Positions 1 to 57,339 of a DNA stretch of 64,000 nucleotides are shown one piece after another. The DNA is from Geosiphon pyriformis (lineage: Eukaryota > Glomeromycota > Glomeromycetes > Archaeosporales > Geosiphonaceae). Location: NCBI GenBank assembly GCA_016748015.1, contig JAAOMT010000678.1:538389-602388 (forward strand). The letters run 5' to 3'. Below the pieces are notes generated by a model. The model made no database searches. It saw nothing but the letters and a program-made list of their open reading frames with translations, and had not been told where the DNA came from. A program made the position numbers and the translations under genes. Within the stretch, counting starts at the first letter, position 1. The number at the start of each line of letters is the position of its first letter.

Positions 1-420
1 TAATTTTACATAAAAAAATTATAAAATTCTTTAAAAAAACTTTATTTTAATTAATCTAATTACAAAAATAATTGTTTATATTAATATACTTTTGTAAAAC
101 ATTTTTTATATTATAAATAATTAAAATTTTATTTAATAAAATTTTAAAAAAAACTTTGTTAACAATTTTAATTAAAGTAATAAATTAATATTAACCAAAC
201 AGAAAAAAAACTAATTAAAAAAACATAATTAATATATTATAACAAAAAATAATATAAAATTACATAAAATAATTAAGATAATTAATAAAATTCAAAAACT
301 TCTTTTTTTTTTATGTCTAAAATTTACAGAAAAAATACATTTATTGAAAAAAAGTTTTAATCATTTAGTAAAATAAATTCAAACTATTTCTGCTTGATTA
401 TAAGATCATTTTAGGTCTTA
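1..420. other. AT-rich, CpG-free flank
   Basis: No open frame, RNA gene or repeat unit is recognisable. The stretch is almost only A and T, with no CpG that I can find, and runs into the LINE remnant on its right. It is probably more decayed repeat DNA. Confidence 0.5.
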
Positions 421-3400
421 ATATTGCTATTATAAAGAAATTTGTTAAAGATTTTGGCTTTAATATTATTGTCAAACCTACTTTATTAAAAAAAAAAGAG
501 TGGTGTTTTAGAAGATAGTTTAGATAACAAAAAAGTGTTTGCCAAGAGATTAAGTAATTACTTTTGGAGTTTAGAAATTAGTAATTTTACTAAATCTAAT
601 AGTATTAACATAAAAGTGGAGTGTTTAGTTAAAGAAACTAGTATTGATAATAGTAAGGATAACATTTTTGCTGATGTGAATTCTGACTAAATATCAAAAG
701 ATTCATAAGTAAAAACCAAAAAAGTTTTGAGTAAGCCATTAAGAAAAATCAATTTTTTAAATAATAATGATAATAATATTTTTTTAAATGCTCTTTTGGT
801 GTTTTTTTCTCTTTCAAAAATCTGGTCAATGTCTTTGTTAGAAAGTTTTTTGTTTTAAATATCAAATTAGATAGAATTGCTTGGAAAACATCTCAAAAAA
901 AGTGTATAATAGTCAGAAAACTATTTTCAAGAATCAATAATTTTAAGAAAGCATTAATTTCTTCAAAATTTGCTGGAATTATTTGTCTTTTTTTTACATC
1001 TGAATTGGGTTTAGCACAAATTATAGAAAAGACAAAAGCTGTAAATGTTTTGGTAAACAGTAATCTCAAAAAATTTATTAAGTATTTAGATTAAGCTGTA
1101 ATGATAAAAAAAATTCTAATTAGAATATTAGCTGAAACTGTATATGCTGTATTATCTAAGTTTAGAATAATAAAGTCAATTAAAATGCAATTAATAGAAA
1201 TGTGGCAAAAGGCTGTAATAGAGTTTAAGTAAATAGAGTATGCTAATTTGGTCATAGTGAAATGGTCTATCCTAATCAAAAAAGATGCTATGTATATGGT
1301 AAGAACTTATAAGAACAAAGATTCATGGGATATAAAAAATTATAATAGAGCATTGTTCTATATATTACCAATGGAAACAAATGCTTATAACATCTGAAAT
1401 TTCATTAAATCAATTGGTAAAAAAATGTGCATTATTAATTAGTATCTAGTTATATATACCCAATTAAAATGTGTTGTTGTTTGTTTTATTTCTGCTGAAT
1501 TATTTGATGCTGTCATGAGAACCATATCAGTATTAAGAAGCACTAATCTGCACTAGTTTTGTCTGATTTTTGCTAAGTATGTAAAGTATAGAAATATAAG
1601 TTATATGTTATTAAACTGTTTATAGATGAAAATTTTTTCTTTAGTAAATTTTTTTACAAAATATTGTTAAATACAAATAAGAGCAAACTGGCAATTATTT
1701 ATGCAAAATGTTTGGTTTTTATTCTTTATTTAATTATTTTTAGTAGTGTTTTTTGGGTAAAAGTTGTTGATGAGTTTTTTTTTCCTCTTTTTGTACACAA
1801 TAGTTTGTCAAATTCTGGTTTTTTTCTGAAGATAAAGTTTATTCTATTAGTGCTTAAGTAAATAAATAGTAGATTTGCTGTTTTTGAATACAGTCTTATC
1901 AGTTTTATAGAACAAGTTGGTAAGCTGGTTAAGAGGTTAAACACACTTGGGCCAACAGTTTTCTAGTCTAATTCTAAATATTAGCCATTAGTAACTCTTT
2001 TATTACAGAATTAAGAAGTAAATATAATAATAAGTGAAGGTTTGAGTGCAATAATTAGCAGCAGAATTATTATAAAAGTAGTGGTTTTTGACTTAATAGT
2101 TGTCCCAAAATTGGAAAAAAACATGGACAATTTGTTAATCATAGTTATAAGCCTAATAGCCAAAGTAAACAATACTGTTTTGAGTTCTAATACTTGTTTA
2201 TTTCAATGACCAATCTTATTTAAAAAGTAGCTATATGCAATGTTAAGAGTATAAACAATTTTGTTAAGCAAATATTATTTGTTGGCATAAAGATATGAAC
2301 AATTTGATTTTGATTATTATTAAAACAAAACTGAAAGAGAAAATCTATTTATAAATTGCCAATAAGTTTGATAGTATTTGTGTATTTACTTCTGGTTTGA
2401 ACTCTAATTATTTGGGCTCAAGTATTACAATTGTTATAAATATTGCCTTAATAAAACATATATATAAAGTTTTTTGAGATTTCTGGCTGACTTCTGTTTA
2501 TTAGATTATTCTTCAAAAATAAACTTTTTGTTTTAATTTTAGGGCTGTATATTGATATAGTACTAACAGTACATTTGGCTTAGGCTGAGAAAATTAACTC
2601 ATTGATTGCAAAGACTGTAAATAAATCTTCTTTTATTATTTTGAACAGAAATTTCAATAAAAATGGTTTTTATAAGTGTGCTAGTTTTAAAAAGTGTTTT
2701 GGTTTAAAACTGGTCAATTTTTTAGTAGAAAGCTTGACCACTAAAATAGAAACATAAAAAAATTCTAAAAGTGTTAAAAAAACAATTGATTATATATTTG
2801 TTTTTTTGAGTTTAATTAATACTGTAGTAAATTATAGTATTCTGGATATTGAAGAGTACTTTAACACTAATTATCAAGCTATTTTTGTTTCTGTGAATTT
2901 AAGTAATCTGTTAAATATACATCTGAACTCTGTATACAAGCAAACAAATAAAAATTGTTAAAAGTTTGATTTTAAAAGTTCTAATAAAGCTAAATAAAAT
3001 AAATTTAAGGATGTTATATTGGCTAATACTACAATATTTTCTGACAAGTTCATAGCATTTAAGAAATCCTTAAACCTGAATACAATATAAGATATTATTT
3101 ATAAAATACTGTGTTTATTGGCTAGTAAAATGTTTAAAAAAAAGTGGTTTAAAGACTTTGATAAAATTTTCACCAAAAAGTCTTTTAGGTTTTACAAATT
3201 AGAAATATTAGTATTAAATATTGTTAAATTTTTACATAGTAGAATTAGTATCAAATTTATTTCTTTGATAAACTGCTGGATTTTTTTGAATAATAATAAG
3301 ACTTTAAGTATTCAAATATTATTGAATTCTAGTGTTGATTGTAAATCTATAAGATCTGTTTTTTTTGGTATAAGAAAAGCATATTGTGCTTTAAAGCTTG

Positions 3401-6400
3401 CCAAATTAATAAAAATAGAAAAAATAGGTATTAGAACTGCTATTAACAAGAAAATAAAAAGTTTTGTTGTTAAAAAAGATTACACAATTAGAAGTATATT
3501 AAAGCATTTTTTTTATAAAGTAATATTAGATTATTTAATTGTTAATAGTAAAGTTGATATGAATTTTGAAGAGATAAAATATAAGATTAATATAATCATA
3601 AAGAGTTGAATAAAAAAGAGATTAGTATTGAATAATGTTTCTAATTTGTGACATTGTCAATATATGCCATTGTTTTATGTTAATAATACCACTTTTTCTG
3701 AAATTATAGGTGCTATTAGATATAAGAATATGATATACTTGATCAAAAACTTACTTAATAAGAAGATTGGTGATTTGTCTGATATTACAAATAAACTCTA
3801 AAAGCACTATAATAATTTAATGCTGTTAATACTATTGGATGTCTTAAATACTTATTTGGTATATAAATTAGTATTTCAATCATGAAAAGAGACTTAGATG
3901 TTGATGATTCTTAAATTGTATGAGTAGAAAAGCATTTTAACCAACACCAGGCCAATTACTTTAATTAAGACTGCTTGAAAAATCTTTCTAAAATACTCTT
4001 TGACAGGATTTTAATAATCTATAGCAAATTCAATATTCTTTATAGTAATAATTTTTTTGTGTTAAAAAATACTACTACTTAATTTTCTATCTTTGCAGTA
4101 AATTTAGTAATTAAAGATGTTCTGAAAAAGAATTATGAACTTTGACTGATTTTGCAAAATATGTAAAAAGTCTATAACTCTGTTAATTGTTGTTATTTAG
4201 AAAATAGTTTTATTTGAATCAAGATATGTAAACAATTCATCAGGTTTTTTGAAAGTATTTACAATAATAGAGTCAATTGAATCATAATAAATTATAGGCT
4301 TACTAATAAGTACTCAATACATAATAATCTGAACCAAAATAAAATTTTTTTCTCTTTGCTCTAAAGGATTTTTTATAATTTTTTTTGGTGTAAAATCAAA
4401 ACCATAAAAGTTTGTTTGGCTATTGTATTGACATTAAGTTTGTTGTCAAAACTGGCAGGCTTAAAAATTAGAATAGACTGATCTTTTATCTAATCACTAG
4501 TGCTTTTGTTGATAACACAATTTAGATAAGAAATAGTTAGGCTGCTACTTAATATATTTTGAATATTGCAAGTGATTTTTTTAAAATAAATAATATTTTA
4601 ATAAACAATAAGAAAACAGTAGCTATTTCTATTAATTAGAATGTAAAAAATGTTTTACTTATAATAAGTAGTCTGTCAATATTTGTTGCTCAGAAAAAAA
4701 AGCTTTATAAATATCTTAGTATCTTTTTGTTTTCTAAAGATTTATTAAAGTCTAGTTTAGTAAATACTTACTTTAATATTAGATTTTTTGCAAATTTAGT
4801 CTTAAAGAAAGCTATCTTAAACAAACAATTTTTTTATTCAGTCTTGGCTGTACTGTAGTCTATAGTTGATTACAAAACTCAGTTTAGTTTTATTTCTAAA
4901 AATGTATATAATAAGTGAAATATGTTGATTAAAAAGAGTTTAAGAATAAAGACTGGTTTGTCAAAAAATTTTCCTAATAAAACTCTTTACCATCCATTAT
5001 TGTATAACTTGAAATTATTTAAGCAAATACAAACTAAGAGTAAGACAGCTTCTGTATTAAGTTTTTCAAATACTAATAAGATTCTTAGTTGTCTGTTTAA
5101 TTTTAGGTTTTTAGATTTACAGATTTTATATTGGTTTTTTATTCACTTTTTGTATTATTCTGTAAAGCTAAGAGTTAGTTTAGTTAACAACTTTTTGGCT
5201 AATATGGTAAAAATATTTTTGAATTATAATATGTTTTTTGATAATAACTTTTTTTTTATTCTGTTTTTTTGGTAGCACTCTAATGTCTTCTGTTTTAAAA
5301 AATTCAGTGTTTTATGACATTTTTTACTTACTTAAAAAATTTGGTATAGTCTTTGTTGAACAATTGTATAATAAAAAAGGATTGGTTTTTAATTGAAATA
5401 GCTTTTATTATTGGAAAAAACTTGATTTAAAAGGCCCAATTTCTGTTTGGTTTGGAGTAATATGTAACTTTTTGACTAATTCTGTATTTTATCTTAATGT
5501 TTAGTTGTCTATTAACAGCTTTTAGTTTTCAAAAAATTTTAATATTAGTGGCTTTTTTTAAGCTCAAGCTCTGTTTTTTTAATGCTAATTTAAATATTGT
5601 TAATATTTACACAAATAAATCTTTGAAGAATTTGAATATATGTAAAATAAGATGTGATGTAGCCATATTTTTTTTTGATCTGGATATTAGTGTTAATATT
5701 AAAGTTAGTGATTTAGTATTTTTTACAATGACAAAATTACAAGTAATTGTATTGGTTTTAAAATGTGTTATAGTTTACAGTACTATTGCAATATATTCAG
5801 ACAATTAAGCTGCATTAAATACTTGTGCTGTAGAATTGGACATGAATTTATTAGATTTTTGCAATAATTGCTGGTTAAAAAAATATTGTGTTGTAAATTT
5901 TGTTAAAAATAAGAGATTTAATGTTTCTTAAAATAAAATTAAGAAATATTCAAATGTGTTAAGCAATAAGCATACTGATAAGCTGACCAATTTAGCTTTG
6001 TATTTAAATTTAATGTTTCTTGTTATTATTAATAAAAGATTTATTAAAGCTGGTCAAATAATAATATTTAGAAATATTTATTATTTTATTTGTGAGATTT
6101 TTAAGGCTGTTTATTGTATATACTAGGAAGTTGGGCCTAAATCTAATATTGTTAATATAAACATGACAGAAAATATGAATTAAATTCAAACTTTTTTAGT
6201 CTAATACTCTGACTTACATATGACAGCTGGTTTCATAAGTAAATTTACTACTAGTTTACACTTATATTTTATAAAGCTTTGTACTATTATCTGCCAATTA
6301 CTGTTTATAAGCATTTATATAATAAAAAATATTCTAATGTATTGTGCTTTTATTGTAGAGAGATAGAGACTTCCAATTATTTTTTTGTGTATTTGATGGA

Positions 6401-6930
6401 TTTTGCTGCTTATATTAATCTGTTTAAGCTGTACTTAGTTCAATAAGATGGTATATTAGGCTTGAGTTTGCCATTGTTTTATGTTTTGCAGGTGTTTTAT
6501 TTATGTAGTTCTGATAATACTGTGTATACTGTCTTGTGCAAAAGTTTTGTATTTAAGAAATAGTGCTCAAAAACTGTATTTATTTTTGACAATACCAAAG
6601 TTATTAATGAAAAGATTGTTAATTTAAGACAAAACTTAAGAATAGTCTACTGTGTTAAGATATAAATAGTAAAAGTTAAATATAGGGCAATTATGAAAAA
6701 AAACCTAATTGTACATAATATTTTGGTGTCTTTTAAGGTTTATAGTCTATTATTTCTGCTTTTTAATGATAGTATTAAATTGCTTAGAATTGTAAAAGTA
6801 TATGATATTAGTTTTGGTTTTTGTAAACTTTGTAGTTTTTTTCCTAATACTAATAGTGTGATATTTATTAAAATAGATTCATAGTATTATTTTAACTGGT
6901 TTAAGTAACTAATCACATATAAAAAATACA
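421..6930 (+). mobile_element. Decayed LINE (non-LTR retrotransposon) with reverse transcriptase and RNase H domains
   Basis: Translated along the plus strand, with frame changes and many stops, this region matches from memory the LINE polyprotein common in Rhizophagus. The clearest reverse transcriptase part is about 3480-4330, with the open piece 3118-3609 ahead of it. There the family's Trp in a NELWKH-like motif is replaced by TAA (3799-3801), a PYEW-like Trp by TAG (3925-3927) and an Arg by TGA (3976-3978). The C-terminal RT region lies at about 4740-5275 and an RNase H domain at about 5610-5990. In the RNase H domain the first acidic residue (YTDGS) reads YTNKS and TELQ reads TKLQ, while the YSD aspartate is kept. 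The substitutions are mostly C-to-T and G-to-A, and CpG is essentially absent. About 480-3000 is probably the N-terminal or endonuclease part but I cannot align it. The element cannot be functional, and its ends are approximate. Confidence 0.8.
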
Positions 6931-8640
6931 TAATTTTTGCTTAGTTCAGATTACTTAGTTTAATATATTGTGTTAGATAGTATTTGAATCTTACTTATTA
7001 AATAATAATAATAAAAATTAATAATAATACAAAATAATTAATATTATTATTAAATAATTAACAATAATATAAAATAACACAAAATAATTTTTTATTATTT
7101 ATTAAAAAAATAAGATTTAATTGCTATTTCGTATTATATAATATTTAAGTATTTTAAACTAAACACAATTTACATACTTTTTATATATAATTAATTATTT
7201 AGATTATTATAGTATTATTATTTAAACCAGAAAAAAATAAAAAATATTTATGTAATTTAAAACTTATATTAAATGTCTTAATAATATTAAGTAATTATAC
7301 TATACTATTAAATAAAACAACAATAATATTTTTAATAAATAAATATTTAAGACTATAAATTCTTATTAAATATATATAAAAACAATATTTACAATATTAA
7401 TAATAATAAAAAGCATATATTAAACAAAAATTATAACATAAAATAACACAAATTGTAGATTATAATTATTTATAAATTAAACTTAATTTTTTTATTTTTA
7501 AATATTTTATTTATTTATTTTTTAAACCAAAAGCCAAATACAAATTATATAATACTTTTAAAATTATTACTTAAAACAATAATTCTTAAACATAATATTA
7601 CAAAAAATTATTCTTGGTAAATTTGAATATTTATTTTAAATATTATTAAATCTTTAATAATAATTTCTGTTTTTTAATATTAATAAATTATTTGATAATT
7701 CGAAAATTTCTTTAGTAAAATAAAAATTATTATATGTTTTTATGTATTATTATATTATATTTTTTTATTTATAAATTTATATTATTTATACTATATTAAA
7801 TATTTTAATTAATAATTGGCTAATTTATAATTATAATTTTAATCATATTTATGTGTATTTCTTTGTATTATCTAATAATGGTTTTTTGATTTATAAGATT
7901 GTTTATTTTTCTTATATTACATATAATAATTTTTTAAACTAATTTAATTATTTAAAAGTAATATAAAAGTCTTATTCTTAAAAAACAATTTACTAAGTTT
8001 TAATAAAATAGTAGTAATAAGGCCAAAAAATACAAACAATTTTGTTTTTAAACTATTTAAAAATATTTCTAAATCATATTTTGCTTGTTTAAAGAAAATT
8101 ATCTAGACTTAAAACTTGCCATTAAAAGCTATTGAATAAAAAATAAATTTTTTTTTTAATATAAAAATTAGCTTAATAAAAAGTTTTTTTCTTCAAATGT
8201 GTTTTTTTAAAAACTTTTTGGATAAATTAGCAAAAATAATAAAAAAATTACATTTTAATACAAAATAACAAAACTTTTTACAATTTTTACAACAAATTAG
8301 ATCAAATATTATTCATAAAAAATTGATTTTATTAAATATAAAAATAGTACAAAAAGCCCAATTTAAATTTTTTAAAGTTTTAAACAAACAGTAATATATT
8401 TAACTTTAAAATTAATAGTAAATATGCAATTATAATACAAGTTTATTATTAGCTTTTTCTAAAAAATACTAAAATCATGTATAATTGTGTTTATAAACAA
8501 AGTAAACAATAATGTTCTAAACTAATCTTTTAATAATTATATTATCTAATTTTTACTGGCTTTAACCATATATACAAAATTTTTTCTGATTAAAATTAAC
8601 TACTTATATGCTAAAAAATCAGTCTAATTTAATATTAAAA
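6931..8640. other. AT-rich, CpG-poor stretch without genes
   Basis: I see no gene. The DNA has the same composition as the LINE and is probably its decayed 3' part or neighbouring repeats. A segment within it, 7121-7240, resembles one near the right end of the window. Composition changes sharply at about 8650, where CpG and GC-rich words return. Confidence 0.5.
7121..7240 (+). repeat. Diverged dispersed repeat, copy 1
   Basis: This segment shares ordered words with 63130-63252: TTGCTA.TT, then a TACATACTTT.TATATATAATTA core, then TAAA.C.AGAAAAAA. The orientation is the same in both places. Both copies sit in CpG-poor DNA, so this may be part of one transposon family, perhaps the LINE's 3' region. 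Similarity was judged by eye in AT-rich sequence. Confidence 0.4.
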
Positions 8641-10565: not shown

Positions 10566-11288
10566 TTAGAAATTTGAGTCTGTATAAGAAAAAAATTGAA
10601 GGAACTCTGGCTGATGACATGACAGGATATTAGTCATTAAAGAGTCATTCTGGAAGGAAGAAGGTATATATTCATAATTAAAATAGAAATTGCTGTTCTC
10701 TGGCAACGTTGGAACTGAAGATTCTGTTCCTTCTATTTGTGTTTTTACTAATGCATTTTCTTGATTTCGTAATTGCTGTGGTATTTTTTTTGAAATATTG
10801 GAAACAAAATTTTTCCAGGATGCCTTAGCTCGTTTCGGTTTGAATTTGTATGTAGGGTTAATTCTCGAATGTTTAGCTCCAACAGCTTTCGACAAAGTTT
10901 TGTATTGGGCTTTATCCTCTGCAGAAGCTAATTTCCATAACTTTGCTGTAACTCTTGACCAGTAGCGCTGATCTTTTTGGTTTATTCCTTTAATTTTTGC
11001 CTGCATAGTGGCACTTTTTCTGAATAATATGTAACAGTTTGGTGGTCTCTTGGTTTGGCCATCCTTTTCTTTATCAAGGTTCGTAATTTCAAAATTGTAA
11101 AGTTCATCACATGTAAATGGAGCAGGAAACAAATTTAGAATTTCACCAATTTGTTTTATTTCTCTTTCTGGCATATCTAATTGTGACGTGATTGCCTTTG
11201 AGACTCTAGCAAATGAATTATTTGGCTCCAATCGATAAATAGGGTAACATGATTTCACGGAAGATGAATTTTGATTTCGGGTTGTCAT
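10566..11288 (-). CDS. HMG-box protein, MATA_HMG type (HMG gene 1)
   Basis: This is an intact single-exon gene of 240 residues. An HMG box spans residues about 80-154. It opens with KRPPNCYILFRK, has aromatic core positions (YW at 109-110, LWKL at 117-120) and ends in the basic NPTYKFKPKRAK, which matches the NY.Y.P end of fungal MATA_HMG boxes. The N-terminal 78 residues and the Ser/Asn/Gln-rich C-terminal tail have no domain I recognise. MATA_HMG proteins bind the DNA minor groove and act as nuclear transcription regulators. In Rhizophagus the family is large and most members are not shown to control mating. The ATG at 11288 is the first in frame. A TATAAATA lies about 200 bp upstream, and a 79-bp duplicated block lies between it and the start. 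The family assignment is secure; the target genes are unknown. Confidence 0.9.
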   Translation of the reverse strand: MTTRNQNSSSVKSCYPIYRLEPNNSFARVSKAITSQLDMPEREIKQIGEILNLFPAPFTCDELYNFEITNLDKEKDGQTKRPPNCYILFRKSATMQAKIKGINQKDQRYWSRVTAKLWKLASAEDKAQYKTLSKAVGAKHSRINPTYKFKPKRAKASWKNFVSNISKKIPQQLRNQENALVKTQIEGTESSVPTLPENSNFYFNYEYIPSSFQNDSLMTNILSCHQPEFLQFFSYTDSNF

Positions 11289-11296
11289 TATGATTG

Positions 11297-11467
11297 GGTA
11301 TTTAATGAAATTTTTTTCGTAAGTGTTGCTTTTGAAATATGAAATTTAAAAATACTTTAAAGTAAGAAATTTGGAAATTGGAGACTTTGGTATTTAATTG
11401 AAATATTTTTTCGTAAGTGCTTCTTTGAAATATTAAATTTAAAAACACTTTGAGCAAAAAATTTGGA
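11297..11467 (-). repeat. Tandem duplication in the HMG gene 1 upstream region
   Basis: Two diverged copies of a 79-bp block lie at 11297-11375 and 11389-11467, a 92-bp period. Both share GGTATTTAAT, TTTTTTCGTAAGTG, CTTTGAAATAT and AAATTTGGA. They occupy almost all the space between the start codon and the putative TATA box, so they are probably in the 5' leader or core promoter. Confidence 0.75.
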
Positions 11468-15054: not shown

Positions 15055-15127
15055 CGAGCTTGCCAGGGGTCGAACCTGGAATCTCCTGATTCGTAGTCAG
15101 GCGCCTTATCCATTTGGCCACAAGCCC
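15055..15127 (-). tRNA. tRNA-Arg (anticodon ACG)
   Basis: The 73-nt minus-strand sequence folds as a full cloverleaf. The 7-bp acceptor is GGGCTTG with CAAGCTC (one G-U pair). The D arm starts TGGCC, the anticodon stem is CCTGA/TCAGG with loop CTACGAA (ACG at 15092-15094), and the T arm is CCAGG-TTCGACC-CCTGG. The ACG anticodon, read as ICG after deamination, decodes CGU, CGC and CGA as arginine. There is no intron. The internal B box GGTTCGACCCC is intact. A TTTT on the transcribed strand (15021-15024) about 30 nt downstream can serve as the pol III terminator. CCA is not encoded, as expected for a nuclear gene. Confidence 0.95.
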
Positions 15128-20703: not shown

Positions 20704-20775
20704 CCCAAAGTCTTTCACATTGACAAAATGCTTTATGGACATTATTCCATTATTCTTTTGAAGGGCTTCACTTTT

Positions 20776-20844
20776 ATTTTATTTTATTTTATTTTCTTTT
20801 CTTTTCTTTTCTTTTCTTTTCTTTTCTTTTCTTTTCTTTTCCTT
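20776..20844 (+). repeat. Pentanucleotide polypyrimidine array in the HMG gene 2 leader
   Basis: Four ATTTT units (20776-20795) are followed by nine exact CTTTT units (20796-20840) and CCTTC. The array lies 26 bp before the start codon and downstream of the TATA box, so it is probably transcribed as a long pyrimidine tract in the 5' UTR. A length-variable tract here could alter expression. Confidence 0.9.
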
Positions 20845-20869
20845 CAAACTTTTTATATCTTTAAATCCA

Positions 20870-21994
20870 ATGATTGAGCTTGACCTCAAAGGTGTGAATG
20901 ATAGTGTTAAGTCAGACCTTAATGGCGTGGACTTATTCGAACTCAACATTAATGAATCTGATTTTTATCATTCACCTAGTGGCTCAAGAGTCAAGAGACC
21001 ACCCAATAGATTTCTAGTTTTTAGAATGAACGTTAAAAATATTGTCCAGGGAAGGAATTTGAGTTGGAATAAACAAATGAGAATAATAACCAGCGTTGCC
21101 TCTCAATATTGGAAGGAGTCTAGTATAGAAAAGAGAAAACCATTTATTGATATCGCGGAAAAAGTTAAAAAACATCACAATAAAAGCTTTCCTAACTACG
21201 CATATAAACCCTTAAAAAAAAAAACGGAATTTAAAGAATACATACCACAAAATACAGTTGATAATTGTACCGATGAAGAAGATGAAAAGGAAACCAAAAA
21301 ATCTGAAACGGAATTAATAAATTTCAAAACCCATATTCCTTCAACATCTCTCACAACAAAGGAAGCTTCTATTTCAAATAATCTAAACACAACACAAATT
21401 TGTACTTCAAACAATCCAAACACAACACCAATCACTCTCCCAATTCCCTTCAATAATGCAAACAACTCAACAAATTTCACTCTTGAAGAAGCCTATCATC
21501 CTATTTCCAATCAAAGCAACTCATATCAGCAAGAAAATCAAAACCAATCTTACTTCACTTCTTCCAACTTCCTTTTAACTAACCCTTATATTCATGGATA
21601 TGACGTTTCAACAACTCCAAAAACTATTTCCCCACAACTATCTCTTAATTTTCCTAGCCAATTTCTCATAAGTCAATTATTTTATAACTCTCAAGAAGGT
21701 TTAATCGATGGTGCAAATTTTTATTCATCAAATGTTTACAATGTTAATCCAGAATTTCAAGAGAATCAAGAATTTTCCCAATTCACCACAAAGTATAGTT
21801 TTCAAAGTCATTTTGTCGATGGTTACCCCTCATGTAATGTAATTGATTTGCCAAATGCAATGCCAAACTCATCCGAAATAACAATGGAATCTCATAATCC
21901 TAATTTTAATTATACCCATGTTGGTTATCCTGGAGAAAGTATAGAAGGGAGTGGGTTCGATATCTCGGATTATTTTGATCCCCTAACCTTTTAA
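20870..21994 (+). CDS. HMG-box protein, MATA_HMG type (HMG gene 2)
   Basis: An intact single-exon gene of 374 residues. The HMG box is at residues about 41-118. It begins RVKRPPNRFLVFR, carries SQYWKES in helix 2 and ends SFPNYAYKPLKKK, the FPNY.Y.P signature of the MATA_HMG type. An acidic DEEDEKE stretch follows at about 137, then a long tail rich in Asn, Ser, Thr and Gln, typical of transcription regulators. The protein is presumably nuclear and DNA-binding. The ATG at 20870 is the first in frame after the TATA box and pyrimidine tract. The 3' flank has a 60-bp tandem repeat. The family assignment is firm; the role in mating or other regulation is unproven. Confidence 0.92.
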   Translation: MIELDLKGVNDSVKSDLNGVDLFELNINESDFYHSPSGSRVKRPPNRFLVFRMNVKNIVQGRNLSWNKQMRIITSVASQYWKESSIEKRKPFIDIAEKVKKHHNKSFPNYAYKPLKKKTEFKEYIPQNTVDNCTDEEDEKETKKSETELINFKTHIPSTSLTTKEASISNNLNTTQICTSNNPNTTPITLPIPFNNANNSTNFTLEEAYHPISNQSNSYQQENQNQSYFTSSNFLLTNPYIHGYDVSTTPKTISPQLSLNFPSQFLISQLFYNSQEGLIDGANFYSSNVYNVNPEFQENQEFSQFTTKYSFQSHFVDGYPSCNVIDLPNAMPNSSEITMESHNPNFNYTHVGYPGESIEGSGFDISDYFDPLTF

Positions 21995-26994: not shown

Positions 26995-28029
26995 ATGATA
27001 AATGATGCTGTGCGAGAAATGTTTCCAAAGAAAAAATTTAGATGCTATGCTTTTTTTCCCCCTTGAAAATCGCTTTTGACTAACTGGTTATCGCTCAAAT
27101 TTAGGTTATTAAATCATTACTCCCCGGACTAAATACCTTTTTGTTGATGGTCGTTATATTACTGATGGCTAAAAAAATTTAGCAGGCAAGGGCATAGAAG
27201 TTTGTTTATGGAAAAATTGAGAGAGATAAAAAATTTCTTAAAAGAAGAGAAGATTAAGAATATAGGGTCTGAAAAAGATTATATAACAGTCGCATAACTG
27301 GAAAAATGAAAAAAGAGATGCTTACTGTTAGTTTAATATGAATAGAAACCAATAAAATGCGAATAATAAAAAATAGTCAAAGTAATCGAATGTGTTCGCC
27401 AAGCGGGAAAATCACTGACCAAACTTTTCAAAAATTATACGAACAGCAAAAGCTAGTATTAAAAAAAAAATATTGCCACAACTATATTAAACACCATGAA
27501 AGAGTTAGGAGCCGAAGAATTATCATTCGATACTATTGTAATTTCTGGCATAAGGGGAAGTTTGCCCTAAGAGCCCCTAGCAAAAAATTATTCAATTGGT
27601 GAACTAGTTACCATTAATTTTGGCAGTAAAATATGAAAGTTATTGTTCAGATTTTATTCGTGCTTTTTGCTTTGAGTAAATTAGTTAATACCTCAACTTG
27701 TCCAAATCTATCAAATATTTCGTGAAGCTCAATGAAAAGGTATTCAAACCTTAGAGTCCGGAATAAAATCTAGTGAAATTGACCGAATTTTACAGAGTTA
27801 TATTCAAGAAAAAGCTATGGAGAATTTTTTAATCATTCAACTGGCCATGGATTAGGTATTGAAGTTCACGAAGCTCCTTGGGATTCGAGTCATGATAACA
27901 CAATATTACAAACCAGAATGAATTTATATTCCTAATTTTGGAGGAGTAAGAATTGAGGACGACATTTTAGTTAAAGAAGATGGCTATGAAATGCTTGCTA
28001 ACTCTCCCCACGATTTAATTTATGTATAA
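26995..28029 (+). pseudogene. pepP: Decayed bacterial Xaa-Pro peptidase (peptidase M24)
   Basis: With several frameshifts and stops the plus strand encodes a whole bacterial M24 peptidase. The N-terminal domain ends in FVDGRYITD (about 27140). The catalytic domain shows FDTIVISG, a LVTINFG segment where the family has DFG (first metal Asp changed to Asn), YCSDF with the second metal Asp, HSTGHGLGIEVHE (His ligand), and GGVRIEDD (last Glu). The EPG segment with the fourth ligand is deleted. The end is LIYV followed by TAA, the family's usual C-terminus. These enzymes remove N-terminal residues ahead of proline. A TGA at 27077-27079 falls in a context reading NRF-TGA-LTG, where bacterial relatives have Tyr or Trp, which fits the UGA=Trp code of mollicutes. 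The gene is dead. Its source is probably a mollicute endobacterium. Confidence 0.75.
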
Positions 28030-28214
28030 AGCAAATAATAATACTCACTCAAAAAATAATCGTGAAGGTAAAAGAATGTCAACTGAAATGAAAGTTTTTT
28101 TTAGCAATAGTAAGAGTAAAAATATTATTCGCTGTTGGTATTATGTTGGAGGAATTTCTAAAAAACTAAGAAATAAAGAATAATATATGGCCACAAACAA
28201 AATAAATAAAATTT

Positions 28215-29001
28215 AAATTTAATAATTGGCCATCACTGCCTAGTAAAATCTCTTAGCTTCCTACCGGGAGCAGTCCGGGAAGCGCTAAGTTATGATGTTA
28301 ATACTCAATGATTTATAGTGGGGCACCGCAAAATAGTTTTCGCCGACCCTTAACAGATTTAAAAATAGCAGAATTTAAAAAAAATTCTCATAGAAACAAT
28401 ATTGGCATTAATAAAGTAGTTGTCAGTAGTCCTTATCTATTGAATTATGGTGGCGTAGTGCATGAGAAGATTTTTCAATGGTAGTAAAATTTTTAAAAAA
28501 AGACATGACACGTGTGGAGGGAATCAATTTAAAAATTATTGTAGTGCACTGAATGCTCAATCACAAAATGTCTTATCACAAGTAGCCAAAGGACTCAATT
28601 CTTCCCTTAAAGAAATTACACGATTTGTATTGCTTTGGAAACAATGTATAGAAGAGTAGTAGAGGTCGGAGGAAGTTTCTAGCAACTCAGATACATAATA
28701 GATAAAGTCGAACAAAAACCAAAAGTAGAGATATGTTGAGATACTTGTCATCTTTATGCACTGGTTATGATATTAAAAACAATTTAGAAGGAGTAATTAA
28801 AGAATTTGAGGGAAAGATTGGTTTAGATAAAATTTTGAGTTATTCATGTTAATGATTCATTTGTTGATTTCAAAATATTAGACATGAAAAAGTTGGTAAA
28901 TTCAATGGCATATTCAAACTACTGGAAACCACTCAGAATAATGAGAGTTATCGCGAAGAAATAAAAATGGTAATAATATTAGATATAAAAATTATGAATT
29001 A
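28215..29001 (+). pseudogene. nfo: Decayed bacterial endonuclease IV
   Basis: The reading across frames follows endonuclease IV from end to end: an IGHHC start (family IGSHVS), FLPGAVREALSY, GAPQNSFRRPLTDLKI (the GAPQN motif is diagnostic), VVVSSPYLLNYG (family HAPYIIN, metal His lost), IIVVH (family VLHPG), VAKGLN, DTCHLYALGYDI (the metal-binding DTCH is kept), then GLDKI and a broken HVNDS, and RHEKVG (family RHENIG). Endonuclease IV cuts DNA at abasic sites in base excision repair and uses three zinc ions. At least four frame breaks are needed, so it is dead. TGA codons at 28309-28311 and 28737-28739 lie inside otherwise good matches, again suggesting UGA=Trp. It follows the M24 remnant in the same direction, so the two probably arrived together. 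Confidence 0.75.
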
Positions 29002-29990
29002 AGAAAATCAAAAAAATATTTGAAGCAAGAAATGATGGTTTCTTTAACTATAGGTAATAATGGTAATTTTAAAGTAATATTAGAAATATTTTATAGTGCA
29101 AGTGAAGCAAGGCTTCAATGATTTCTTAAAGTTCCTGTGAAAACTAATGGGAAATTTGGGCATTAGGAAGTAGAATGGGGCAAACTCATCATATTTTATA
29201 TAAGATTGAGAACTTTATTTATTCACATCTTTTATTGTTAATAAGTACCAAATATTAAAAACCATATTACTAACACTTTTTGGGTTGAATAAGTATTTAA
29301 ATCTAAATAAAGGTAAAGAATCAAATACAATCAGTGGCAAAATTTGCAATTATCATAAAGCATTTGAGACATGCAATTCTTCTTTTAAGAGAAAATCATA
29401 ATAATGTACTGGTTCCTACTCCTACTCTCTTTCTAACTCAAACTCATATTCCAACTGATTAAATTAAGATGATAATATTAATATATTGGAATAATTGCTG
29501 TAGAAATTCTTGCAATTAGTTTAGAAAATTCAATAATTTTTCAAAAAGGAAGAGAGTTGAGGTTAACTTTCAATCATCAATAGAAGACCGAAGTCTTCCC
29601 TAAGATTGTCCCGAATTATTTTGCTAAAAGGATTGCAATTCCTATCAAAGAAAATTTCCAAGAAAACAAAAAAAATTAGTAAAAGTGAAAGAAACAGAGA
29701 ACCTAATCCTAATTTTGCTTTCAGAACTCAAGAGCTTTTACCAAACGAAACTCTTGAACCATTACTGGCTCAGATTTACTAGTGGATAATCATAATTGGA
29801 AAGCTCTCATTAATAATTGTCCTGATCAAAGATTAACAAGCCAGAATCTCCGCTAACATTTGTGGTAAAAGAAGAGAAAAGACACTTAGGGCTAGCTTAG
29901 TTGGGTTTTAGAAAATGCGGAAAAAGAAAATTAGGACGCCGTAAAAGATATTTTTGTGGAAGTAGAAAAATCATGAGCAAGATGTTTATC
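29002..29990 (+). pseudogene. Unrecognised bacterial-like debris after nfo
   Basis: Short protein-like runs continue on the plus strand in changing frames, for example FLKVPVKTNGKFG (about 29120), RMGQTHHILYKIEN (about 29180) and FVVKEEKRHLGLA (about 29860). Composition resembles the two remnants before it, so I think the insert extends to about 30 kb. I do not recognise the gene or genes. Confidence 0.35.
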
Positions 29991-30786
29991 ATTTACTTAG
30001 TGATAAAATAGACGCTATCATATCTAGTTAGTGTTCAATACAAAAATTTGAAAATTAAAAGTTTATAACAAAGCAATATTAATTAATATTTACAAATATT
30101 AGTTAATAGTTTACCAAAATGCAAAAAATTAACAATTTTTAGCAAGCCCAACTTAACTATATTCAAACTAGACTTTTTTATATTCAAGTAAAATATATTC
30201 TGTAGAAACTTTAAAATTTTCAGTTCATCTTTTTCAAATATTTGTACTATGTTTTTCTATTCAAAAACAATTTTTTTTTACTAAATGCATAATCTTTAAA
30301 TAACTTTAAATTCCTACACAATTTAATTACACTTTTATTTATACAAGTTTTTGCCATTTTTTCTTGGTGCTAAGAGAAAAAAGTAGCCTTTTACCCATTT
30401 TTTAAAATAAAAAAATATGAATCTTTTGTCTTATGTTTTAAAAATTTATTAGCAATAATAAAACATAAAGTAAGAAAAATATCAATAATATTTAAATAAA
30501 ATAAAATTAATTAATTATAGTTAAAAAAAAACTTGATACATATAACAGTAATTAAATTTTTCTTGGAATTATATGATAAAAAGATATTAATCTCAATATT
30601 GATAATTTTTTCACAATTTTTTAAGCCAAAGTTTAAAAATATAAAAAGAAAATTATAACTTTTTTATTATTAGTTTTAATGATGAAACTATAAAACATTA
30701 TATACTTTAGAAAATAGATTCTTTATAAGATCATGTGAAATATTTTTGATTTATTAGTTCAAAGACAGTTTTTATTTTTTGTCTTA
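29991..30786. other. AT-rich, CpG-free stretch
   Basis: No gene is seen. Composition returns to that of the window ends. A 5' terminal inverted repeat for the Tc1 element that follows was looked for here and not found. Confidence 0.5.
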
Positions 30787-31662
30787 ATGCAATTACAAAT
30801 AGAAGTGGTAGACCTTCTTTTCTTAATAAAAAAAACTACTAAAATATTACAAAAAACAATTAAGAAGAATCCAAAAAGTACTCTCAAAGAAATTCAAGAA
30901 GATTTCAATAAGAAAAATCTTAAAGTTTCAACAAAAACTATCAGTACTTCCTTACACAAGATTAGTCTTTACTCAAGAATTGCTGCAAAGAAACCATTAT
31001 TAACTCAAATCCAACAAGAAAATCGACTTAATTGGTGTATTAAACGTTCTTTTTGGACAATTAAAAAATGGAATGAAGTTATTTGGAGTGATTAATCAAG
31101 ATTTTGTCTTTTTTCTGATGGACCTCAAAAAGTATGGAGAGAAAAAGGAACAAGATTTAACAAAGAAAATTTATCACCAACTGTAAAGCATGGTGAAGGA
31201 GGAATTATGGTTTGGGGATATTTTTGTGGAACTGGATTAGGTCCTTTAGTTTTAGTAGAAGGCATATTAAATCGGTTTGGATATATTGATCTTTTACAAA
31301 AACATTTATTATCATAGATTAATTATAAATTTTATCATAAACATTATTTATTTCAACAAGATAATGCCCCAATTCATACAGCTAAAGATGTTAAGACTTG
31401 GATGGCTCAAAACATCTCAATTTACTTTCTAAATGGCCACCACAATCACCCGATTTGAATCCAATAGAGCATTTATGGGATTATTTACAAAAACAACTCA
31501 AAAAATGAAATCCGCGCCCCGAAAATAATCACAAATTATTTCTCGCGTTACAAGAAGAATGGCAAACAATTTCACGAAATATCTATATAAATTTGGTTAC
31601 TAGTGTATCTAGACGTATTGAAGAATGTATTAGAAAGGAGGGTAGACCAACTAGTTATTAAG
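30787..31662 (+). mobile_element. Tc1-like transposon remnant with decayed transposase
   Basis: The frame from 30787 gives the second helix-turn-helix region (STLKEIQEDFN..NLKVSTKTI) and then AAKKPLL..IQQENRLNW. The first catalytic Asp is at WSD, but the following Glu codon is TAA (31093-31095). The fold continues with KVWREKGTRFN, GGIMVWGYF, LFQQDNAPIHTA (second Asp) and, after a frameshift near 31410, WPPQSPDLNPIEHLWDYL (third acidic residue). It ends in GRPTSY and TAA at 31660-31662. This is the standard DDE layout of a Tc1/mariner transposase, which cuts and pastes its own element at TA sites. Two lesions at least make this copy inactive. It lies in CpG-poor DNA yet retains CpGs (31512-31522), so it may be a later arrival. 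Confidence 0.85.
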
Positions 31663-40326: not shown

Positions 40327-40497
40327 GGAGACAGTTTTTTCCAAGAAATTTTAATTGCAAAACTGGAAAGTTACTTATCCAAACTTCCCATTATTCTGAG
40401 AATTTGATCAAGGATTCAAAGAAATTTTTCAAAGCAATTTCTTATCAATAAAAATTAAGAGCCTCCAAATAAGTGAACTTTCGATTTTAATAGCAAA

Positions 40498-41514
40498 ATG
40501 GGAAAAGAAAACAAGAACGTTTTTGAAATGGCAAACGTTGTTAAGAAATCAATTGCTTCTCCATATTCACGTAGAAAATCAACAGCAACAGATGGTAACA
40601 AGAAAAGTCGGTCCAAGATAGAAAAGAAACGCATTAGCAGTGAGATTCCAGCAAGTTTTGACCCCAAAATTGTATACAAACCTCGTTTTGATCTTCAAAC
40701 ACTTATATGCACTACAAAAAAACCACCATCCCTTGGTAAACCACCACGTCCTGCAAATAGTTTCTTTCTTTTAAAAAATTGCTTGTTGAAGGAGATGTGG
40801 AGCTTTGGGTTAAAACCGACCATGCCAATGGTTTGTCAACTTGCTAAAAAAGTTTGGCAAGATGCCCCAAATGAGGTGAAAAAACTATATGATGACTTAT
40901 CAACAGAAGCTCTAAAGTTACATCATTCCCTTTATCCAAATTACAAGTATCAACCTAAAAGATCCTCAGTTTATGTTTCAAATTCTTTCCCGGAGGGCAA
41001 CTCCGCCGGTATGATGACAACTTTTAGTATTAATCAATCATATCCCATATCAAATTTTATGATCACTAACACCAACAACAACAACAACAATAACGACAAA
41101 AATGAAGAAGAAAAAGAAGAAGAAGAAGAAGAAAAAGAAGAAGAAGAAGAAAAAGAAGAAGAAGAAGAAGAAGAAGAAGCCTTTACTTCACCAATACAGT
41201 CTGGATATGAAAATTCTGCCTTGTCTCCTGATTCAGATGTAACAACTTCATCTTTATCATCGGAAAATGCTTCACCAATTTATCAAAATTTCGAAGAGTT
41301 TTCAACTCAACAACTTTCAGAAGAAAATACAATTTACCATACAGTTCCGTGCTTTGTCTTTCCCTTAGATTATTTCACTGAAAATGATATTTATGAAGAA
41401 TTATTAATAACAGATGGTACATTTTTCCCATTCGATCAGTTTGAATTGTTTCCACAAATAGGAACATCACACAGCTTACTCCTTGAGCAACACATTACGG
41501 CCCTTTCTTTTTGA
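40498..41514 (+). CDS. HMG-box protein, MATA_HMG type (HMG gene 3)
   Basis: An intact single-exon gene of 338 residues. A basic Ser/Lys-rich N-terminus (SRRKSTATDGNKKSRSK) precedes the HMG box at residues about 80-157: GKPPRPANSFFLLKN, then LAKKVWQDAP and HSLYPNYKYQPKR, which is the clear MATA_HMG end. The linker after the box carries seven Asn in a row (193-199) and then an almost pure Glu/Lys stretch (203-227) encoded by GAA/GAG repeats. The rest is Ser/Thr/Glu-rich and acidic, as in activation regions. It is predicted to be a nuclear DNA-binding regulator. The start is the first ATG after the TATA box, and AATAAA-type signals follow near 41744. The GAA repeat makes its length likely to vary between strains. 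Confidence 0.92.
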   Translation: MGKENKNVFEMANVVKKSIASPYSRRKSTATDGNKKSRSKIEKKRISSEIPASFDPKIVYKPRFDLQTLICTTKKPPSLGKPPRPANSFFLLKNCLLKEMWSFGLKPTMPMVCQLAKKVWQDAPNEVKKLYDDLSTEALKLHHSLYPNYKYQPKRSSVYVSNSFPEGNSAGMMTTFSINQSYPISNFMITNTNNNNNNNDKNEEEKEEEEEEKEEEEEKEEEEEEEEAFTSPIQSGYENSALSPDSDVTTSSLSSENASPIYQNFEEFSTQQLSEENTIYHTVPCFVFPLDYFTENDIYEELLITDGTFFPFDQFELFPQIGTSHSLLLEQHITALSF

Positions 41515-53792: not shown

Positions 53793-55216
53793 ATGGAGAG
53801 TCAAAATTTGGGTCCTTCTAAAAAATTACCATTAATAATATTCACTTATATATTATTTTTAATCATTTTTTTGCAAAATTGGTTATCTAAAGAATCAAAC
53901 TCTAAGAAAAATTATTCGAAAAATTTTAATTTCACTGTTGATTTGCAAAATATGAACTTTAAAATTCGTAATTTAAACCAATCAGATATGAATCTTGTCT
54001 CTAATTTATTTTCAGAAAAAGACTCCAAATATCCACTTACCAGGGGAAAAAATCCTAAAATTTTTCAAATTTTATCCATGGCGGCACGCTATGCTAGTTT
54101 AGCCTACTGTTTGGACGATTCAAATAGCCACAAATTAGCCCCTGGATTTTTTGGTAGAGTGAATGACTGAATATACTTAATTAATAATATAAGTCTCTGA
54201 ATTTTTATTTTTTAGTTAAACAAAAGATTGAAGAATTAGAAGCTGATAATACACAAACGATAAACATATTCTTCAAAGTACCAACATTGGAACAAATAGG
54301 TTGGTTCTCCAGCAATTTCCAACTTGAGAAAATAAAAAAAGATGGAGCTTCAGACATGCAAATTGGAAGCGTTTTCAAAAATGAAATGGACCATGTTAAG
54401 CCTTTCTGGAATATTTTGCAACCAGAAATTGCCAAGCTTGCAACAAAAAACATGAAAAGGACTACCACTACAACAAAGATAAACTTTATTGGTCATGAAA
54501 ATGCCGGGGGTATACTTTTTTATTTGATAAATTTTGCTTCCAACCCCTTTTTTTTCGACTATTTGAAGGGAAACACGCTTTTCTAATAGAGAAAATAATT
54601 AACTTCATCAATTAATCTATAGTTATGGCTTTTTTAAGCGCTATGAGTTTAAGTACTGGAGATACAAATTATTTTTGTCGGGTTTTTCACATCTGTGAGT
54701 TTCGTGCTATCTCATTTGGTGCACCAAGAATCGGTGACGAAAATTTTGCCAACAAAGTCAACCAATTGACTAATAGTGACAAACAAAAGTTGCGTCTCCA
54801 AAAAAAGATTCCCTTTCATTTTATTCGTGTCACACAGGCGTATGATCCTATCCCCCGATTACCACTTCAGTCAGCTTCTGGTCTGATTTATAAACATGCG
54901 GGGGAAGAATTTTGGATTCCACCAGATTCTGAATGCAACTGTTTATCGGATGATACCATTTTTTATTGTCCAGGGAAGGTGGTTGATCCAAGTAAAGGAG
55001 ATATTGAGGAAAACTTGGTATGCTTAAGACTATATTATTTTTCCTAGAGAATTATCTCACTCAATGATTCAAAATAATTTTTTTTAGGCATGCATTAATC
55101 AGTACAAAGCCAGTATCAACCCAAAAAGTCAAAAATCAAATTTTAACAATATTCAATATTACTTTAGCCATCAAATGGGATTACAAAATAATGATGAATG
55201 CCAAAATTTCTTTTAA
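53793..55216 (+). CDS. Class 3 lipase-like protein without the catalytic serine
   Basis: Four exons (53793-54153, 54216-54509, 54623-55017, 55088-55216) joined by 62-, 113- and 70-bp GT-AG introns give 392 residues, and every junction keeps the frame. Residues about 11-29 are a membrane anchor or uncleaved signal (LPLIIFTYILFLIIFLQNW). The lipase_3 fold is shown by AARYASLAYC, the nucleophile elbow region NFIGHENAGVMAFLSAMSL, FGAPRIGDENFA and RVTQAYDPIPRLPL. The family's GHSLG reads GHENA here, so Glu215 replaces the catalytic Ser. The catalytic Asp is present (Asp293). The His normally just before the closing YF is not seen (NNIQYYF), although His378 follows it. I therefore expect no triacylglycerol hydrolysis and perhaps a binding or regulatory role. 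The elbow straddles intron 2, so an alternative splice should be excluded, but no nearby serine would restore GxSxG. Confidence 0.8.
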
Positions 55217-55593
55217 ATTCAACGAAAATTTACATTCTATACCAAGGTTATTATTATATAAATTTTAAAAGAATAACTTTTCTACGCGACAGCTAGGGGA
55301 GATTTATTTTGTTGAAAATTTTATTAAATCATTTTTCGAAGCTTTATAGTTTGGATCCGAGAAATAGATTGATGAAGAGATCAATTAATTTTATAGTCGC
55401 AGTAGAGCACGAGTTTAGATCCTTTCTCTTGCATCATGGATGCATAGTTTAGAAAATTTTGATTTATGCAAACATGAATTTTAAAATTAAACTCTTTTAC
55501 TGTCTCATTTCTATAAAGCTCGTGCTCGAAATATAATTTTTTCAAAATAAGCATAATCTTTGAATCCTTGATCAAATTATCTACTCTCTTAAA
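55217..55593. promoter_or_regulatory. Upstream region of tandem membrane-protein gene 1
   Basis: It holds TATAAAG at 55512-55518, 82 bp before the ATG. A 9-bp inverted pair, GAGCACGAG (about 55405) and CTCGTGCTC (about 55519), flanks it; the second arm overlaps the sequence just after the TATA box. No other gene is seen. Confidence 0.4.
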
Positions 55594-56592
55594 ATGTTTC
55601 AATTAGTTTTGATCTTTTGTTGGGCCTTCCTTTCTGCTGTTTCCGAAGCCGTTTTCAACCCAGAAATTTCGACACTAGGCGCTGATCGTCGGTCTCTGGT
55701 GGATCTTAGCATCCAGAACTCTGCCACTTTGTCTGATGAACCTTCCAATAAAAATCTCTGGGTTTATCCGTACAAATTGGATGATTCAAATATCCATAGA
55801 TTTTCACGTAAAACTCTTTTCGAACCTACGCGTTTTCATCGGTTGAAAGATAATTGGACACCTCGAATTCGAAGTAATCATCATGAAAGAATTCATCATC
55901 AAACGCATCGATTTTCTGAAAGCGATCATTTGTTACAAAATGAATTGCAAATTAACGCTCACCTCAAAACCCTTTTGGAACATGAGGAGAGATATATTAG
56001 TTCTTTATTGTGGCAATTGCAAACTATCAGCGAGACGAACAAAAATGAAGCTAATAAATTGAATTTAGATTTTGGAGAGCCTAAAATGCTTAAACAGTCT
56101 GATATATCAGTTTCCGATTCTTCATTGGCTCCAATAACGGACACGATGGAGGAAAAAAATTTTGCGATGACTCTTCCAGATGATTCATCTATTTCAAACT
56201 CTAAATTTAAAATCTATCCTTTGGAAGATAGCTTGATAACTTTATCTGAAGCGATTCCATTTAATGGCGACCCAGAAAATTTCGAAAATCTCATATCAAA
56301 TCCTCGAGCCGACAACCAAGTGCATGGAAACCGCTTAACATCGAATACAAATGATGGCGTTGCAACAACTCCAATTGAACATCAGCAAGAAAAATCAGAT
56401 ATACAGCTTAGTATTTTTTCTACACCACATCGAAAATCTTCACCTTCTCAAGGCTATTATTTCCCCATTGACGCAGAAATTTGTGAAGCAGAGACAAAGT
56501 CAAGGTTCAGAGATGTTTTTTTAACCGCAACTTTATTTTCCAGCATGCTGATTATAGCTATGGCAGTATCACGATCCTTTGATGGAAATTGA
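55594..56592 (+). CDS. Secreted or type I membrane protein, tandem gene 1
   Basis: A single-exon gene of 332 residues in no family I recognise. Residues 1-19 are a signal peptide (MFQLVLIFCWAFLSAVSEA). A His/Arg-rich segment follows at about 88-110 (RSNHHERIHHQTHRF), then a stretch that could form a coiled coil (about 110-150) and a long acidic, Ser/Asn-rich region. One hydrophobic segment at about 306-324 (VFLTATLFSSMLIIAMAV) with Arg before and after it ends the protein with a very short tail. The layout of signal peptide, polar ectodomain, C-terminal membrane segment is shared with the next two genes, and RFRDVF....LF..ML aligns with RELFYP..LF..ML of genes 2 and 3. It may be the most diverged member. 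Confidence 0.75.
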   Translation: MFQLVLIFCWAFLSAVSEAVFNPEISTLGADRRSLVDLSIQNSATLSDEPSNKNLWVYPYKLDDSNIHRFSRKTLFEPTRFHRLKDNWTPRIRSNHHERIHHQTHRFSESDHLLQNELQINAHLKTLLEHEERYISSLLWQLQTISETNKNEANKLNLDFGEPKMLKQSDISVSDSSLAPITDTMEEKNFAMTLPDDSSISNSKFKIYPLEDSLITLSEAIPFNGDPENFENLISNPRADNQVHGNRLTSNTNDGVATTPIEHQQEKSDIQLSIFSTPHRKSSPSQGYYFPIDAEICEAETKSRFRDVFLTATLFSSMLIIAMAVSRSFDGN

Positions 56593-57339
56593 TGAATTCC
56601 ATTCAGTATATTGGATTAAGCGAAAAACATAGATTCTAGCAATACGTTTAAAGCCCACTCAATGATCTAATGGGTATTCCCACTTGATTCATTTTTAAAA
56701 CCAAATTTAATATTTCAACTTTATCAAAGATTTTAAGGTGTTCAAAAATGGAGGCTATAATTTTTCAATATGTTTTATTTAACTCATCTTTGGTAACAGG
56801 GATTTCTGTCTTAATTTATTCCAAATGTTCTTACCATTCAAAATTTAAACCAAGAAACATTGTACATTTCTCTAATCAAGGTTAATGCATGATAAAATTT
56901 TCGTGTTGATTAAATGGTTTTATATTATATCGTAATCAACCTCAAAACAAAAACCCATTTTTGGTAGGACTACATTGTTTTTTTATATATTATAGAGATC
57001 CAAATAAATAAAATAATCCGCCGATTATATCACGATAACCAATGAAATTTCATCTCAGTCGGGAAAAAAGTTTCATAATCATCATGGATTTCCCGCAAGT
57101 CGATGTAAATATTTTTATTTCAAAGTTTCAGTTCACCAAATGACTCAATCCAAATAGTTTTGTTATATAAATTTTTAAATTGTAGCAGAAATATTATTCC
57201 GTTCGAGAGAGTATCTATAAAAGATCTATTTTGCGGAATTTTCGACATTCCCAAAAATCTTTTGTAATTCACTTGAAATTTCACAACTTGGAAAATCATC
57301 AAATTAAAATATTTCCCTTATTCCAGAAATATTAACGAA
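56593..57339. promoter_or_regulatory. Spacer with putative TATA box of tandem gene 2
   Basis: TATAAAAG at 57216-57223 lies 124 bp before the ATG of gene 2. The rest is AT-rich spacer without a gene. Confidence 0.4.

Follow-up and report, generated by a model that had tools for sequence, protein, structure and literature searches.

The locus and its question

How did two broken bacterial genes come to lie side by side in the interior of a fungal contig? The question is raised by a 64,000-nucleotide stretch of the Geosiphon pyriformis genome (hereafter the window), which occupies positions 538,389 to 602,388 of contig JAAOMT010000678.1 (C283; 732,850 bp) in an assembly of 124,688,122 bp and 406 contigs. 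Within it are the remains of a gene for an M24 peptidase and of a gene for endonuclease IV (nfo). We think it likely that these remains are a block of DNA of mollicute origin, the most likely donor being a mycoplasma-related endobacterium (MRE), and that this block was joined into a fungal chromosome and decayed.

Two decayed genes of mollicute type

The genes were delimited with a frameshift-aware protein-to-DNA aligner written for the purpose, using guide proteins from Spiroplasma citri, which placed them as follows.

27014 to 28026, plus strand: decayed M24 gene (aminopeptidase P / Xaa-Pro peptidase type), mollicute type
28216 to 28972, plus strand: decayed endonuclease IV gene (nfo), mollicute type

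They are arranged head to tail, their aligned parts about 190 bp apart, and a three-frame translation of the interval first reported for them (26995 to 29990) has the runs of both proteins switching among the plus frames. The M24 alignment spans residues 15-364 of 364, with 134 of 327 identical, 10 frameshifts and a score of 459, and contains five TAA or TAG and five TGA codons. The Nfo alignment spans residues 5-287 of 308 (104 of 248 identical, 7 frameshifts, score 384) and contains one TAG and one TGA. Six shuffles of the DNA, a control made for M24 only, scored 28-36 against 459. A preliminary description of the locus had claimed two adjoining bacterial genes of one direction, ridden with stops and frameshifts; the near end-to-end alignment to mollicute proteins bears this out, and both genes are broken even under genetic code 4, in which TGA encodes Trp.

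Profile searches recovered the same families. In the M24 read-through pieces, Pfam detected Peptidase_M24 (E 1.1e-13) and Creatinase_N (E 8.9e-08), while three short nfo pieces gave one weak AP_endonuc_2 match (E 0.27, under the cut-off) and two no match. Whole read-through translations matched the NCBIfam models for deoxyribonuclease IV (E 4.6e-48) and an aminopeptidase (E 5.5e-54), both under the cut-offs of those models, as expected of broken genes.

Damage extends to the metal sites of both enzymes. We take the M24 metal-ligand motifs to be D, D, H, E and E; the first Asp has become Asn and a seven-residue deletion takes out the first Glu, the remaining three of the five being retained. 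For Nfo we assume nine Zn ligands (E. coli H69, H109, E145, D179, H182, H216, D229, H231 and E261), of which H69 is replaced by Ser and D229 by Ile and the other seven are retained; 16 residues are also missing ahead of the C-terminal LET motif. There is no open reading frame in the nuclear code for either gene, stops and frameshifts being found all through. Both are pseudogenes, under the standard code and code 4 alike, and the nfo remnant, by descent an Nfo gene, is not functional. A genome search with the M24 DNA and the read-through proteins found no second copy of either gene.

Base composition was of little help in tracing the source. At 31%, the G+C content of the two genes lies in the range that PMC11423566 gives for MRE assemblies obtained from fungal genomes (29-33%), and since measured host stretches in the window have 22-30%, this value separates little. 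Dinucleotide bias gave no separation of decay in a bacterium from decay in a nucleus.

Relatives of the two genes

Relatives were sought by tblastn in a plasmid collection that is mostly non-mollicute and contains some whole mycoplasma chromosomes filed as plasmids. For M24, with 258 matching records, the top four were all Spiroplasma citri (35.1-36.5% identity, 192-194 bits) and the best non-mollicute reached 174 bits. For nfo, with 35 records, Spiroplasma citri ranked first (37.7%, 134 bits), and identities were 32.0% for Mycoplasmopsis cynos and 29.7% for Mesomycoplasma hyorhinis. The best match is thus to mollicutes in both genes, with Paenibacillus one bit higher for nfo.

Homologues (11 for M24 and 9 for nfo) were then ranked by frameshift-aware scores with TGA read as stop, which gives mollicutes no advantage of code. 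For M24, Spiroplasma scored 439, followed by M. cynos (358), Listeria (349), Mesomycoplasma (344), Bacillus badius (343), Mycoplasmopsis gallopavonis (340), Monoglobus (338), Paenibacillus (327), E. coli (325), Pseudoalteromonas (289) and Haladaptatus (224). For nfo, Spiroplasma (369) was followed by Eubacterium (313), Listeria (311), Paenibacillus (309), M. cynos (243), Bacteroides (205), Mesomycoplasma (202), Selenomonas (191) and E. coli (147). Four trees were built, with 12 rows for M24 and 10 for nfo and the decayed row stitched via either Spiroplasma or Listeria; the M24 tree with the Spiroplasma stitch joined the insert to Spiroplasma (90/87) within a mollicute group (90/95). Of all the homologues compared, Spiroplasma ranks as the best relative, a clear result for M24 and a less clear one for nfo.

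In two mycoplasmas the corresponding genes, pepP and nfo, are apart, by about 33 kb in Mycoplasmopsis cynos and about 321 kb in Mesomycoplasma hyorhinis. When 37 of the 41 annotated features of a 50-kb Mycoplasmopsis cynos stretch were translated and compared with the window plus 20 kb of flank, none matched at E 0.05. A scan of genome contigs with the M24 read-through, which reached no mollicute, returned only a Thermoplasmatota metagenome-assembled genome.

A fungal homologue was considered as the source and rejected. The host's own Apn1 is a separate gene (C354:836228-837282), and the M24 read-through, searched against the genome at E up to 1, matched the window alone (4 candidates scored). 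A better fungal match, which the preliminary description had named as a finding that would speak against its proposal, was therefore not seen.

TGA codons and the code of the donor

The Spiroplasma-guided alignments contain six in-frame TGA codons, three of which fall on columns that hold Trp in mollicutes.

27077 to 27079, plus strand: in-frame TGA at a mollicute M24 Trp column (Trp in 4 of 4 mollicutes, 0 of 7 other homologues)
27339 to 27341, plus strand: in-frame TGA at an M24 column with Trp in some mollicutes (2 of 4, both Mycoplasmopsis; 0 of 7 others)
28737 to 28739, plus strand: in-frame TGA right ahead of the nfo DTCH motif (Trp in 1 of 3 mollicutes, Spiroplasma; 0 of 6 others)

By comparison, such columns hold none of the six TAA or TAG codons, one of which lies opposite a gap. 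Trp occurs in at least one mollicute at 6 of 339 columns in M24 and 4 of 254 in nfo, so three in six is well beyond chance (1.5e-4 at a rate of 2%, or 4.2e-4 for three in eight, values uncorrected for the choice of alignment). For M24, reading TGA as Trp raised all four comparison scores the most, being best alone in three and tied with Ser for Spiroplasma. On balance these patterns point to a donor that read TGA as Trp (code 4), on small numbers and with uneven gains in score. If so, a fungal nucleus using the standard code would be unable to make either protein whole, and the genes were probably dead on arrival because that code reads their TGA codons as stops.

Fungal setting of the insert

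The two dead genes lie at C283:565402-567360, in the interior of the contig. A Pfam scan of 10 open frames, five of which had no match, and a further Pfam search beside the insert identified the following features.

10569 to 11345, left flank: HMG-box frame (Pfam)
20762 to 21991, plus strand, left flank: open frame with an HMG box, fungal (Pfam HMG_box E 9.2e-08, above cut-off)
30801 to 31500, plus strand, right flank: host transposon of Tc1/mariner type (Pfam HTH_Tnp_Tc3_2 E 7.5e-17 in 30739-31095)
40477 to 41511, right flank: HMG-box frame (Pfam, under cut-off)
54616 to 55044, plus strand, right flank: class 3 lipase exon (Pfam Lipase_3 E 1.4e-07, above cut-off)
60770 to 61885, plus strand, right flank: Sel1-repeat protein (Pfam Sel1 E 8.2e-64)

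Bacterial sequence therefore has host sequence on both sides in one contig, with the HMG-box frames to the left and the lipase, Sel1 gene and transposon to the right. The transposon lies 1.8 kb downstream of the dead genes and is multi-copy: a query of 30020-31500 matched the genome at least 43 times, counting the window (40 of 51 candidates scored), and the long copies start at query positions 781-789, which is 30800-30808 in the window. At the edges of the insert, a repeat search (best 20 of 23 direct families and 25 of 72 inverted pairs) found no clear target-site duplication.

The assembly was also searched for a living mollicute. A bacterial 16S model found one locus only among the 5 of 277 candidates scored, which we read as the fungal 18S. 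An rpoB search returned five matches on C330 and C362, none above the cut-off, which we take for nuclear polymerases, and polC and secA searches returned none. A live mollicute contig is undetected in the assembly, from which it could have been filtered before deposit.

Proposed origin and alternative explanations

We propose that an intracellular mollicute, most likely an MRE, shed DNA and that a piece of at least about 2 kb was captured during the repair of a broken fungal chromosome, bringing with it two genes in their bacterial order and direction. The genes would have been silent from the start, with the nuclear code stopping at their TGA codons, and neutral decay after entry would have added the frameshifts, stops, deletions and lost metal ligands. 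The insert, having no function, would record as a molecular fossil that a mollicute and a fungal nucleus were once in contact. MRE genomes are described as enriched in pseudogenes (PMC11423566), so part of the decay may predate the transfer. The mollicute-like origin advanced in the preliminary description agrees with the best scores of Spiroplasma in both genes and with the TGA codons at mollicute Trp columns, and its placement of the insert in a fungal contig holds, given the HMG-box, lipase and Sel1 genes and the multi-copy transposon around it. That interpretation is partly supported and was largely right in kind.

A number of observations weigh against this account. In the nfo tblastn the Paenibacillus match (36.5% identity, 135 bits) stands one bit over Spiroplasma, and the two mycoplasma nfo proteins score under three Bacillota, low scores that may be due to the fast evolution of these other mollicutes. 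The M24 tree stitched via Listeria and both nfo trees give the insert no firm place among Bacillota and mollicutes, and Listeria is the nearest row by path in both nfo trees. Reading TGA as Trp is best alone in just one of the three nfo comparisons (Spiroplasma), and the two mycoplasma nfo proteins score higher with TGA as Arg, Ser or Cys. The column at 27339 is not Trp in Spiroplasma and Mesomycoplasma, and four extra TGA codons (27218, 28463, 28550 and 28836), present only in the mycoplasma-guided alignments, are off Trp. The 421 bp of left flank that were checked are single copy in the genome, so the fungal context on that side rests on the gene 5 kb further left. The controls named in the rpoB, polC and secA searches include no mollicute genome, and the 16S search scored few of its candidates.

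That the donor was some other mollicute reading TGA as Trp, a Spiroplasma or another arthropod- or soil-borne form rather than a fungal endobacterium, would be a variant of our proposal, and the position of Spiroplasma as nearest among the relatives compared fits it. Identity to Spiroplasma citri is about 41%, however, which argues against recent S. citri sequence, and the nucleus is far more accessible to an endobacterium living inside the cell; we regard such a donor as unlikely. A pseudogene region of a living MRE could also have been misjoined into the fungal contig during assembly, an explanation that draws on the pseudogene-rich nature of MRE assemblies and on the contamination of fungal assemblies by MRE contigs (PMC11423566). 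For such a chimera, false joins must have been made at two points about 2-3 kb apart, both interior to a contig of 732,850 bp, and the polC, secA, rpoB and 16S searches gave no bacterial contig, which is not decisive as contaminants may be removed before deposit. We judge a chimera to be quite unlikely.

A source outside the mollicutes, either a giant virus or an ordinary Bacillota bacterium, would be in keeping with the best solved-structure relatives of the two proteins, which we take to be Bacillota enzymes, and with the thin Spiroplasma lead for nfo and the weak trees. Against this, Spiroplasma beats every Bacillota protein compared in both genes, and Trp at 27077 is restricted to mollicutes in our sample. 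In pattern-based IMG/VR scans made with the two alignments, M24 had no relative and Nfo a single one, which has Leu at the column of the insert's TGA and whose contig we take for a clostridial provirus. A non-mollicute source is accordingly rated very unlikely. Least credible of all is that the fungus gained the bacterial genes, used them and later lost them. As single-enzyme genes the two are in principle usable by a fungus, but TGA codons at Trp columns would block translation in the nucleus from the start, and both genes retain one order and strand. We give this explanation hardly any weight and retain capture of mollicute DNA, with decay in the nucleus, as our preferred account.

Relation to known transfers

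Fossils of mitochondrial DNA in nuclei (NUMTs) offer a close parallel, being blocks of DNA in a non-nuclear code that are dead on arrival and decay slowly. The source here would be a bacterium, not an organelle, and neither gene is known as a usual mitochondrial gene. Within MRE themselves, transfer from fungus to endobacterium has reportedly been found (Naito 2015; Torres-Cortes 2015; Longley 2023), and it would involve the same partners, if the donor here was an MRE, in the opposite direction. Gene transfer from fungi to MRE is described in PMC10507103 and PMC5982333.

Wolbachia inserts in filarial nematodes and insects are likewise endosymbiont genes lodged and decaying in host chromosomes, and endosymbiont DNA is reported even in filarial nematodes free of endobacteria (PMC2882956). 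The present case differs in its mollicute donor with another genetic code, its fungal host and its one small block. Transfers from bacteria to fungi in Rhizophagus irregularis and in 44 early-diverging fungi also concern bacterial genes and the same broad fungal group. For R. irregularis, the available text of PMC5982333 gives bacterial donors that are not known MRE, and the main text of PMC11291939 is without the term Mollicutes. In PMC10507103, candidates with fungal matches only in Glomeromycotina are described as set aside as possible MRE or other bacteria, a filter that could hide a case like the present insert, and in PMC11423566 MRE sequence found in fungal assemblies is attributed to endobacteria that had gone undetected. 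The available portions of PMC11291939, PMC10386755 and PMC13315312 mention no transfer from a mollicute to a nucleus, and one open-access library, searched by title or start of abstract, yielded no report of a mollicute-to-fungal-nucleus transfer. An event of this kind is already known elsewhere, and it is the direction between this donor and this host for which that library, so far as titles and abstract openings go, gave no report.

If the proposed origin is correct, DNA also passes from endobacterium to fungus, and the trace it leaves is physical and can be dated. Fossils of this sort could be used to distinguish ancient inheritance from late invasion of the endobacteria, and annotators would be cautioned against treating all mollicute-like sequence in these genomes as contamination. 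It is possible, though doubtful, that over evolutionary time DNA shed by MRE has entered Glomeromycotina nuclei and left dead code-4 fossils of past endobacteria, also in fungi that now have none; these could date a partnership of disputed age.

The unassigned kilobase and other features of the window

The preliminary description had drawn the insert as 26995 to 29990. The gene part of that interval, 27014-28972, stands; the remainder, 28973-29990, has nothing recognised on the plus strand.

28973 to 30010, no strand assigned: stretch without an assigned gene, up to a fall in G+C, which may or may not belong to the insert

In the three plus frames of 28973-29990, Pfam and NCBIfam gave sub-threshold noise only, and tblastn of these frames against the 72,556 records of the plasmid collection, up to E 10, gave no match. 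By DNA search this sequence is single copy in the genome. A third bacterial gene at 28973-29990 was considered and rejected, with no support from these searches. Near 30000 the G+C content drops from about 34% to about 20%, so the right edge of the interval is an edge of composition and not of a gene; 28973-29990 is tied to the insert only by position and by this fall.

The observed/expected ratio of CpG is 0.34 in 28973-30010 against 0.76 in the M24 and nfo genes, and 30013-31024 has no CpG. Given this scarcity to the right of the genes, 28973-30010 may not share their history.

CpG is also missing further to the left. Window positions 1-7130, with 2.6 kb to their left, have zero CG dinucleotides over 9,722 bp; about 82 would be expected in positions 1-7000 (sum of a per-kilobase table). 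Its edge near 7000 is sharp, with a G+C content of 7-10% in the kilobases to either side, and TpG is raised (1.16). One plus frame in it resembles what we take to be a decayed retrotransposon open reading frame of the Rhizophagus kind; none of seven frames scanned was above a Pfam cut-off. The tract looks like the outcome of CpG-directed hypermutation, whether like repeat-induced point mutation or by decay of 5-methylcytosine, run to completion.

Elsewhere in the window, three consecutive open frames at 55564-60224 (342, 427 and 389 aa) have no Pfam match. By eye each has a signal-peptide-like start and a membrane-like C-terminal segment, and the three may form a tandem family of secreted or membrane proteins. 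A single tRNA was found in the window, a tRNA-Arg (ACG) on the minus strand at 15055-15127. At the ribosomal DNA locus (C320), we compared the 18S with primer sequences for arbuscular mycorrhizal fungi that we presume to be correct: AML1 and AML2 have one mismatch each, AM1 has four, and four family-specific primers have 3-6, a pattern that is compatible with Glomeromycotina, though no proof of it, and perhaps indicates a less usual lineage of that group.

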